From Herpetosiphon giganteus (GTDB lineage Bacteria; Chloroflexota; Chloroflexia; Chloroflexales; Herpetosiphonaceae): DNA of 64,000 nucleotides. How positions within the stretch are numbered: position 1 is the first letter of the stretch; each line of letters opens with the position of its first letter. The translations under genes and the position numbers were made by a program. The notes under the pieces are model-generated. The model was given only the letters and a program-made list of their open reading frames with translations, searched no databases and was not told the DNA's origin. This document shows, one piece after another, positions 19,281 to 22,284 of the stretch. The DNA lies in contig NZ_JAFBCZ010000002.1 in assembly GCF_016907925.1 (NCBI RefSeq), forward strand, positions 248,001 to 312,000, in the 5' to 3' direction.

Positions 19281-19913
19281 CAGAAATTGACACAGGCAGA
19301 TGCTAGGGTTTGGGGCTAGAGGCAGGAATCAGGAAAAATGGAACCACGAAGCGTACGAAGGTTGCCAACTGAAACAACAACAATCCAACAGACAAATATT
19401 AGGGGGTGCAGGGGGATGAAAACCCCCTGCGTCTCCCTCCGGCGGAGGGACGGAAGGGAGGCGAACGAGTGGCCAGTGATAAGCGTTCAGGAAAAATGGA
19501 ACCGCGAAGATCACGAAGGTTGCCAACTAAAACAATAACAACAATCCAACAAGCAAATATTAGGGGGTGCAGGGGGATGAAAACCCCCTGCGTCTCCCTC
19601 CGGCGGAGGGACGGAAGGGAGGCGAACGAGGGGTCAGTGATCAGCCATCAGGGATCAGGAAAACCGGAACCGCGCAGCACGCGAAGATCACGAAGGTTGC
19701 CAACTAAAACAATAACAACAATCCAACAGACAAATATTAGGGGGTGCAGGGGGATGAAAACCCCCTGCGTCTCCCTCCGGCGGAGGGACGGAAGGGAGGC
19801 GAACGAGAGGCCAGTGATAAGCGTTCAGGAAAAATGGAACCGCGAAGGGCGCTAAGAACGCGAAGGTTGCCAACGCGAATGGTTGATTAAGCCAACTAGG
19901 TTAGGAGCACCGG
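19281..19913. other. intergenic repeat array between yvcK and nurA
   Basis: No gene is credible in these 633 bases. The open frames that cross it are made by the tandem units. The region holds about 3.3 copies of a 157-172-bp unit (see 19333-19874), and the last 40 bases contain the AGGAG ribosome site of the NurA gene. Confidence 0.7.
19333..19874 (+). repeat. tandem repeat array, about 3.3 units of 157-172 bp, each with a double-hairpin element
   Basis: Units begin near 19333, 19490, 19658 and (partial) 19830, each with aaaa-tggaaccgcgaag and gaaggttgccaact. The unit core is the double-hairpin element at about 19401-19470, 19562-19631 and 19739-19808: hairpin 1 GCAGGGGG / CCCCCTGC, hairpin 2 TCCCTCC / GGAGGGA. 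Units differ by small indels in the cacgaag part. This is not a CRISPR array: the units are too long and there are no unique spacers. Confidence 0.85.
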
Positions 19914-21092
19914 ATGCCACTCGATTTTAATCAGGTTGGCCAACAAATTAAACGCATGGGCGGCGATTTGCGCCAAACAGCCAATCAACATGATCAATTG
20001 GTGACCACAGCTTGGACAAATCTGGAACAAGAAAGCCCGCGCTGGGAACATTGGGCACGCCATGCAGAAGAAAATTATCTGCGCAGCCCATGGCTGTTGG
20101 CGGCTCCCGCCGAGCCGATTACCAATCGTTATCGCTTGCCCAAATTTGCGCCACATTATTGCTTGGCGGCAGTTGATGGCTCGCAGATCGACCTTGATCG
20201 GCATTGGGCGGTCGAGTGTTTTTTGATTAATCTTGGTTTGGTGACGATTCAATATGGCCAACAGCCCTATTCCAAATTGCATTCGGTGCCAGCTTTGCAC
20301 TACAACGATCAAGAATTGTTGCTGCGCGATAAAGATGGCCGCAGTTATAAAATGGCTGGAGCCTTGGTCCATGCCGAGCGTGATACTCGCGAAGGGATTG
20401 CGCTGGCGAGCTTAGCCCAAGAGATTTTGGCTACCAGCACTGCACCGTTGGTCGCAATGCAAGATGGTACGCTGATTCGCTGGTCGTTGAGCGGGCTTGA
20501 TCCGTGGGTGCGCAGCCATTTTCTGCAACGCTATCTTGATGAAGGTTTGGCTGCTTTACGCGCCGCTGATGTGCCAACCTGCTCCTACATTAGCCATCCC
20601 AAAGCGCCTGAAGTGACCGGAATTGCCCGTTTGATCGCCAAACCAACCTTGAACAGTGCCAGCAAAGCCGAAGGCATTATCGATCCCTATCCTGGGATCA
20701 ACGATACAAAATTATTTGGCAATGGCTGGTTGGGCGATGGCGAACGTAGCGCGTTATTCAAAAGCCTCTCCAAAATTAATGTTGAAGAATATGGCGAGCA
20801 CGCGATTTACTTCTTCTACCTGAATGTTGGGGCCGAATTAGCGCGAATCGAACTGCCCGAATGGGTGGCGCAACGGCCAGAATGGGTTGATTTGATTCAC
20901 GCAGTCGCGTATGATCAAGCCCATCGTGGCGGTGGCTATCCGGTGGCGTTGGCGCGGGCGCATGAGCAAGCAGTGGTGCGCGAAAGCGATCGTCGGGTGT
21001 TTCGCCAAATGATTGAGCAAGCCCTGTGGCATGCTCGCTTGAGCAATGGCTCATCATTAAAACAAGATGCCAAATCTCAAGTGCGGGTTTAA
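19914..21092 (+). CDS. nurA: NurA-domain nuclease
   Basis: A 392-residue protein with a NurA domain, the RNase H-like 5'-3' nuclease that in archaea works with the HerA hexameric helicase in end resection of double-strand breaks. The signature is LAAVDGSQIDLD near residue 83, with the metal-binding Asp, then VAMQDGTLI near 180 and a C-terminal AYDQAHRGGGYPVALARAHEQ block holding the other acidic and basic residues. It begins with an ATG eight bases after AGGAG. The HAS-barrel protein follows 45 bases later in the same direction. No HerA ATPase is in the window. Confidence 0.82.
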   Translation: MPLDFNQVGQQIKRMGGDLRQTANQHDQLVTTAWTNLEQESPRWEHWARHAEENYLRSPWLLAAPAEPITNRYRLPKFAPHYCLAAVDGSQIDLDRHWAVECFLINLGLVTIQYGQQPYSKLHSVPALHYNDQELLLRDKDGRSYKMAGALVHAERDTREGIALASLAQEILATSTAPLVAMQDGTLIRWSLSGLDPWVRSHFLQRYLDEGLAALRAADVPTCSYISHPKAPEVTGIARLIAKPTLNSASKAEGIIDPYPGINDTKLFGNGWLGDGERSALFKSLSKINVEEYGEHAIYFFYLNVGAELARIELPEWVAQRPEWVDLIHAVAYDQAHRGGGYPVALARAHEQAVVRESDRRVFRQMIEQALWHARLSNGSSLKQDAKSQVRV

Positions 21093-21137
21093 CTCTTTTA
21101 GCTATAGCCTATCCTCGATAGCCTATACCCAAGATAT

Positions 21138-21746
21138 ATGCAAGAACAACGTATTGGTGAAGTGATCGAAGCAAGCTCAACGCAATGGACAACTGGCGCA
21201 TATGAGCTGCTGAATGCGCCGCCGTTTGGCTCGTTGATCAAGGCTGGTTGCTACGACAACGATTTGTGTGTCTATGGCTTGGTCTACGATATTCGAACTG
21301 GTAGCCGCGATCTTGGTGGCAAAGCCATGGTACGTGGTGGGCGGCGCTACGATGGTAGCGAGTTCTACGACGATCAAATTTATAGCGAACATCCTGATCT
21401 TGCTGCCGTGTTGCAGACCGAGTGGAGTGCCTTGGTGATAGGCTACGAGCGGGCTGGCCGCATTATTCATTATCTGCCACCGCAACCGCCAACCGTCCAC
21501 TATAGCGTCCATTTGTGTGATGATAATACCGTGCATCGTTTTACCCAACACTGCGATTTCTTTCGCATGGTCTTACACGCCAATTTGCCGATTGTTGATG
21601 AACTGTTGGGCACAGCGATTCGCAATGCGGCAGAATTACAAGCCAATCGGCGCGAATATGAGCTGTACGCAGGCCGCGAATTAGCCCGTTTGCTGCGCGA
21701 CGATTATGATCGCTTGCGCGTATTGGTGCGTATGTTGACCAGCTAA
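21138..21746 (+). CDS. HAS-barrel domain protein
   Basis: A 202-residue protein with the HAS-barrel fold (named for HerA and ATP synthase N-terminal barrels). Recognisable features are IGEVIEASSTQWTTGAYEL, PPFGSLIKAG, VYGLVYDI, ALVIGYE, HYLPPQPPTVHYSVHLC and the C-terminal RELARLLRDDYDRLRVL. Very similar stand-alone proteins occur in cyanobacteria; I recall them as HAS-barrel proteins of unknown role. In HerA the barrel is the surface that binds NurA, so this free barrel beside nurA may be a NurA regulator or adaptor. That last step is inference. Confidence 0.75.
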   Translation: MQEQRIGEVIEASSTQWTTGAYELLNAPPFGSLIKAGCYDNDLCVYGLVYDIRTGSRDLGGKAMVRGGRRYDGSEFYDDQIYSEHPDLAAVLQTEWSALVIGYERAGRIIHYLPPQPPTVHYSVHLCDDNTVHRFTQHCDFFRMVLHANLPIVDELLGTAIRNAAELQANRREYELYAGRELARLLRDDYDRLRVLVRMLTS

Positions 21747-21759
21747 ATTGGGAGGATGT

Positions 21760-22284
21760 ATGCCGAGTTATGTTGTTAATGGGCGTAAATACAACAGCAT
21801 CGATGAAATGTCCGCCGCAGATCGCCAAGCCTATCAACAAGCGATGGATACATTGGCAGATAATGGCGGGTTTCCTAACCTCTTAGATAAAAATACAACC
21901 GTCCAAACGACCCATACAACCAATGTTAGCCAGCAGCATGTGATCAATGGCAGCAGCGATCAGCTGAACGCAATGTTTGCTGATCGCGATGGCAATGGCA
22001 TTCCCGACATTATGGAAGCAAACGGCGATCAGTTGAACGCGATGTTTGCTGATCGTGATGGCAATGGCATTCCCGACATCATGCAAGAGCAAAGCAACTT
22101 TAGTAGCCAGCAAGCCTCAACTTCCTCAAACACTTGGAAAACTCCTACTCCAAGCGCTGATCCGCTGGCTAGTTCGGCATTGCCATGGAATCAACCACGA
22201 CAAAGCAACGGATTTTTGCTTGGTTTGATCGTTGGCGGCGTGGCGATCGGCGCAGCCTTATTGGCATGGTATCTCTTGATGTAA
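21760..22284 (+). CDS. tail-anchored protein with two DxDxNG calcium-loop-like repeats
   Basis: A 174-residue protein starting 13 bases after the HAS-barrel stop, with ggagg upstream of ATG. Residues 67-112 are two near-identical 23-residue repeats, each with FADRDGNGIPDIM, which matches the D-x-D-x-N-G-x-x-D pattern of EF-hand, dockerin or thrombospondin type 3 calcium loops. A Ser/Thr/Pro linker leads to one C-terminal membrane segment (about 152-172). The N-terminal 40 residues (VNGRKYNSIDEMSAADRQAYQQAM) look like a small folded module. Calcium binding is predicted, not shown. It probably shares a transcript with nurA. Confidence 0.7.
   Translation: MPSYVVNGRKYNSIDEMSAADRQAYQQAMDTLADNGGFPNLLDKNTTVQTTHTTNVSQQHVINGSSDQLNAMFADRDGNGIPDIMEANGDQLNAMFADRDGNGIPDIMQEQSNFSSQQASTSSNTWKTPTPSADPLASSALPWNQPRQSNGFLLGLIVGGVAIGAALLAWYLLM

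Follow-up and report, generated by a model that had tools for sequence, protein, structure and literature searches.

What does a HAS barrel do beside the nuclease NurA when it is a protein of its own, with no HerA motor next to it? NurA-HerA is a well-studied DNA-end-processing machine whose role in bacteria is disputed and whose control is unclear (PMC9960219, PMC12977600), and in published structures the HAS domains of HerA sit on NurA (PMC9960219; PMC12977600). The question is raised by a locus in Herpetosiphon giganteus, within a stretch of 64,000 nucleotides that we refer to as the window. A sequence-only reading of this locus had proposed a bacterial NurA module without HerA, in which the free barrel replaces or bridges the HerA interface and a third protein perhaps tethers the module to the membrane. 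The features concerned are:

19914..21092, + strand: nurA, a predicted nuclease of 392 aa (PF09376, E 1.6e-27) with intact catalytic residues
21138..21746, + strand: free HAS-barrel gene, type I, encoding 202 aa (PF09378) without an ATPase motor
21760..22284, + strand: third gene, a small tail-anchored protein of 174 aa, genus-restricted and outside the conserved module

The arrangement described in that reading was confirmed exactly: three genes on one strand, at these coordinates, with intergenic gaps of 45 and 13 bases. The reading frame is common to nurA and the barrel gene. Just upstream of nurA (window 19342-19852) lies a 173-base intergenic repeat in three direct copies, which are 76-100% alike and spaced by 161 and 177 bases. 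PADLOC and NCBIfam returned nothing useful.

The NurA protein scores 97.1 bits against PF09376, well over the cut-off of 21, and contains the whole catalytic set of D88, E160, D184, Y342 and H350. Across Chloroflexota NurA sequences, the first four of these positions are 95-100% conserved, and the position of H350 holds His in 98 of 111 sequences and Asp in 13. Two lysines near the C-terminus, 383 and 387, lie beyond the Pfam domain within a basic tail and do not vary in any of the Chloroflexota NurA sequences aligned. The genome carries one copy of nurA, which differs from its counterparts in two other Herpetosiphon species at 58 synonymous and 10 non-synonymous codons, and at 49 and 8, respectively. 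In many genomes of the order there is also another protein, of about 380-420 aa, that matches the NurA domain far more weakly (E 1e-4 to 1e-9); carriers include the relatives G019, G022, G025, G053 and G059.

The barrel protein lies close to the detection limit of PF09378, at 24.3 bits (E 3.3e-5) in the protein scan, just under the cut-off of 25.2, and at 25.9 bits, over it, in the genome search. Its relatives score up to 59 bits. The match covers the N-terminal half of the protein, in which the barrel and a post-barrel segment (about 4-135) are followed by a C-terminal region of ~65 aa that looks helical. We recognized HerA by a HAS barrel joined to a DUF87 motor with a Walker A motif, and the window's barrel protein does not have this combination; aligned with the HerA N-terminus by hhalign, the type I barrel gives a weak match (59.6%). 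An AlphaFold2 model of the barrel, built from an input alignment of just four near-identical sequences, reached a pLDDT of 34, too low for the model to be of any use. Herpetosiphon llansteffanensis and H. geysericola encode exactly the same protein, and H. aurantiacus one that is 96% identical; comparison with two other Herpetosiphon species gave 32 and 37 synonymous codon differences with 0 non-synonymous ones in either case. Judged by these codon counts, the barrel is the most constrained of the three genes, under strong purifying selection.

The third gene starts at ATG 21760, with GGGAGG just upstream, and encodes a protein with a pair of DRDGNGIPD loops and, at its C-terminus, a hydrophobic, transmembrane-like segment. 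No Pfam family scored over its cut-off, no relative was seen in the other fetched loci, and the genome itself holds no convincing paralogue. The gene was found in the six Herpetosiphon genomes only, and its synonymous and non-synonymous differences from two other Herpetosiphon species number 22 and 24, and 18 and 32; by this measure it is a fast-evolving gene, close to unconstrained. Because it is both confined to Herpetosiphon and fast-evolving, the proposal that its product belongs to the module as a membrane tether is unsupported, and the gene is best left out.

HerA and the gene order around the barrel

The genome search for a HerA-type ATPase that the sequence-only reading had suggested did find a full HerA. 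With the HAS-barrel profile, two places in the genome matched, namely the free barrel and, on another contig, a protein of 574 aa:

G000:C5:277458-279107: herA of the window's genome, with a HAS barrel and a DUF87 motor with Walker A

This protein contains GKSGTGKS and a DUF87/HerA central domain (E 1.6e-35) in addition to its HAS barrel, and it matches the solved structure 4d2i HERA (PDB). Thus, the description of the unit as being without HerA holds for the neighbourhood and fails for the genome, and the absence of HerA is ruled out. An Mre11/SbcD-like protein (E 1.5e-11) is also encoded elsewhere in the window's genome.

We then counted profile matches in 300 Chloroflexota genomes that sample the whole phylum and are at least 90% complete. 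The type I barrel was found in 122, HerA in 123 and NurA in 178. Barrel and HerA occur together in 120 genomes, the barrel alone in 2, both of them draft assemblies, and HerA alone in 3 (phi 0.966). Such counts share ancestry, and the Fisher value for them is not to be taken as a probability; the barrel-HerA pattern nonetheless spans dozens of families. The idea that the barrel replaces HerA is contradicted by the presence of HerA in the window's own genome and in 120 of the 122 genomes with a type I barrel, and by a usual gene order in which barrel and herA stand side by side.

This gene order is seen outside the window's own taxonomic order. There, 64 barrel genomes had both NurA and barrel positions listed, and in 59 of them the barrel follows nurA on one strand at a distance of no more than 3 kb. 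In 46 of the 64, the barrel lies within 500 bases of the end of the NurA domain, and 13 more are same-strand pairs within 3 kb; 5 are unlinked, and the tight form is seen in 24 families. As adjacency is kept in 59 of 64 genomes outside the order, it is not due to chance. Of the 120 genomes with both barrel and HerA, 60 have the two genes within 500 bases of each other and a further 10 have them within 3.5 kb. We fetched 69 loci with barrel and herA and saw nurA as well in 58, all outside the window's order; every one of the 58 reads nurA-barrel-herA on one strand. The distance from barrel to herA was measurable in 42 loci; 33 of them have the two genes overlapping or at most 50 bases apart, and the overlap is of 4 bases in 15, which suggests translational coupling. 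No fusions were found among nurA, barrel and herA.

Within the window's order, nurA and the free barrel were both at listed places in 53 of 60 relatives, and in 26 of the 53 the barrel gene comes immediately after nurA (7 of 9 genomes in the window's family, 18 of 23 in family f4, and 1 in f2). The two genes are unlinked in family f3. A HerA of 530-580 aa occurs throughout the order and is encoded away from nurA and the barrel. By these gene positions, nurA-barrel and herA have been parted in the order to which Herpetosiphon belongs, and in light of the operon seen elsewhere in the phylum, the window shows a three-gene operon that has been split up.

A second, divergent type of barrel

At first count, 57 NurA genomes seemed to have no barrel. 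One of them (locus L180, from a NurA genome without the type I barrel) encodes mre11-rad50-nurA, then a protein of 201 aa, then herA, and proteins resembling the 201 aa one are also found in four other fully read NurA loci without type I. An hhalign comparison of this type II with type I aligned 183 of 202 columns (97.6%, E 2.7e-12), and we take the two as divergent types of one family. The type II profile matches 50 of the 300 Chloroflexota genomes, none of which has type I, and its members are mostly under Pfam detection. They usually occupy the same slot as type I, with rad50 and mre11 upstream. In family f22, which has large genomes, the type II barrel is far from nurA; type II HerA adjoins the barrel at L223 and L224, the two f22 loci where the fetched DNA reached it. 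An Mre11/SbcD-like gene also follows herA in the type I loci L121 (8144-8542) and L147 (3873-4241), tying type I to the repair set of type II.

With type II included, the apparent absence was overturned for 49 of the 57 genomes. A barrel of type I or II is present in 170 of 178 NurA genomes (phi 0.93 over the 300 genomes), and neither profile detected one in the remaining 8. The sequence-only reading had staked its proposal on the barrel co-occurring with NurA in other genomes, and this proved to be so. What stands of that proposal is that bacterial NurA belongs to a module and has the free barrel, usually encoded right behind nurA, as a stable partner. Both cases carry a caution for the reading of genomes: the motor was missing from the neighbourhood only, not from the genome, and the barrel's "absence" from 57 genomes mostly reflected the limited reach of the profile used to search for it.

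The type II protein also matches four haloarchaeal plasmids (E 2e-17 to 8e-9), so the free barrel is common to Bacteria and Archaea. Plasmids of Natrinema zhouii, Halobaculum marinum and halophilic archaeon DL31 carry mre11-rad50-nurA, a gene for a hypothetical protein, and herA, the hypothetical protein being the free barrel. On the Halorussus salilacus plasmid, the stretch read shows barrel-herA, with NurA encoded across the start of the record. Among 72,556 plasmids, these four are the only ones found with this type of NurA. Haloferax volcanii, according to a review, has neither HerA nor NurA (PMC7776575). The gene before the plasmid cassette (L193 1-176, L194 1-195, L195 1-368) encodes a DEAD/DEAH helicase in Natrinema and DL31 and a phospholipase D family protein in Halobaculum; these neighbours prompt the question whether the cassette serves in defence on the plasmids. 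A search of viral contigs and phages found no relatives.

A candidate third component of the NurA-HerA machine

Co-occurrence with HerA and the operon order argue that the barrel is an added component and not a substitute for HerA. It is very probably a functional partner of NurA-HerA. Our preferred explanation, to which we assign a probability of roughly 0.6, is that it is a dedicated third component, which would act as an adaptor or assembly subunit where NurA and HerA meet. The barrel would keep the HAS fold by which HerA touches NurA, and the protein's own C-terminal region would stand in the place of the motor. It may bind to NurA or to the barrel ring of HerA, or sit between the two, and once docked could control the loading or activation of the NurA nuclease on the HerA motor. 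For the placement specifically as an adaptor at the interface, we see an even chance. More tentatively, and at slightly worse than even odds, the barrel could be an obligate third subunit of a NurA-HerA(-Mre11-Rad50) machine in Chloroflexota and on some haloarchaeal plasmids, giving a three-protein complex with a working cycle other than that of the two-protein enzymes of Sulfolobus, Thermococcus and Deinococcus.

The surfaces that such a protein might engage are known from published complexes. HerA docks on NurA through the acidic Asp78, Glu80 and Asp81 of its HAS domain in Deinococcus (PMC9960219) and through alpha1 helices and the loops preceding them in Thermococcus (PMC12977600). A mutual-information analysis of covariation in 57 three-protein genomes, without power at an Neff of 44, gave inter-protein signals no better than those within proteins. 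Two-protein HerA-NurA complexes work in Deinococcus and Thermococcus (PMC9960219, PMC12977600), and the Thermus genes nurA and hepA overlap, with no gene between them (PMC5448004); the machine can therefore work without the barrel.

The fold common to HerA and the free barrel also permits a different role, in which the barrel enters the HerA ring, mixing with or capping the HerA barrels, and breaks their six-fold symmetry to seat the two-fold NurA dimer. The probable translational coupling of barrel to herA would fit such a subunit, as would the published complexes of 6 HerA to 2 NurA with C2 symmetry (PMC9960219, PMC12977600). Likewise, the distribution of the type I barrel agrees better with that of type I HerA (phi 0.966) than with that of NurA (0.67), a lower value that arises partly because type II is not yet counted in it. 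Known HerA-NurA pairs, however, solve the symmetry mismatch without a barrel, and a pure ring role does not explain the extra C-terminal region. We consider this role unlikely.

Somewhat less probable still is a regulator that keeps NurA inactive until HerA arrives by covering HerA's surface on NurA. The barrel has the fold through which HerA contacts NurA, and the nurA-barrel pair persists where herA has moved away, in Herpetosiphon and family f4, as expected for a nuclease made together with its keeper. Yet the unlinking of the two genes in family f3 indicates that their co-production is not mandatory, and archaeal and Deinococcus NurA are used without any such keeper. A HerA-independent module, with the free barrel in HerA's place and the third protein as membrane tether, was suggested by the three co-directional genes with short gaps and by the lack of herA beside nurA-barrel in the window and throughout its order, but with a full HerA in the same genome and in 120 of 122 barrel genomes, and a third gene that is fast-evolving and found only in Herpetosiphon, it is highly improbable.

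Comparison with known systems

In the open-access papers searched, we found no description of a HAS barrel that is a protein of its own and accompanies NurA or HerA, although an earlier passing mention is possible. Among the closest known systems is the thermophilic archaeal operon of HerA-NurA and Mre11-Rad50, which has the same nuclease and HAS-barrel ATPase as here and the same Mre11-Rad50 neighbours as the type II loci. The window's genome encodes both nurA and herA. The two share an operon at 58 loci of the phylum, but they do not do so in the window's order. The archaeal system is described as a four-gene set with a two-protein 6:2 complex; here, nurA and herA have a fifth gene between them, that of the free barrel. 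Deinococcus and Thermus likewise have bacterial NurA and HerA, with the HAS domain of HerA as the contact to NurA (PMC9960219), but they have no free barrel, and the stop of Thermus nurA overlaps the start of hepA (PMC5448004).

Compared with HerA proteins that bear the PF09378 HAS domain, the free protein matches the same profile N-terminally and aligns weakly with HerA N-termini, but it has no DUF87 motor and instead has its C-terminal region of ~65 aa. BrxHI of BREX provides another case of a HAS-like barrel used outside HerA; there, it is an internal domain of a large helicase rather than a free protein, and NurA is not involved (PMC12839542). If the barrel is indeed a third component, then the present two-protein models describe one variant only of a machine whose additional part is phylum-wide in Chloroflexota and also found on archaeal plasmids, where it is annotated only as a hypothetical protein.
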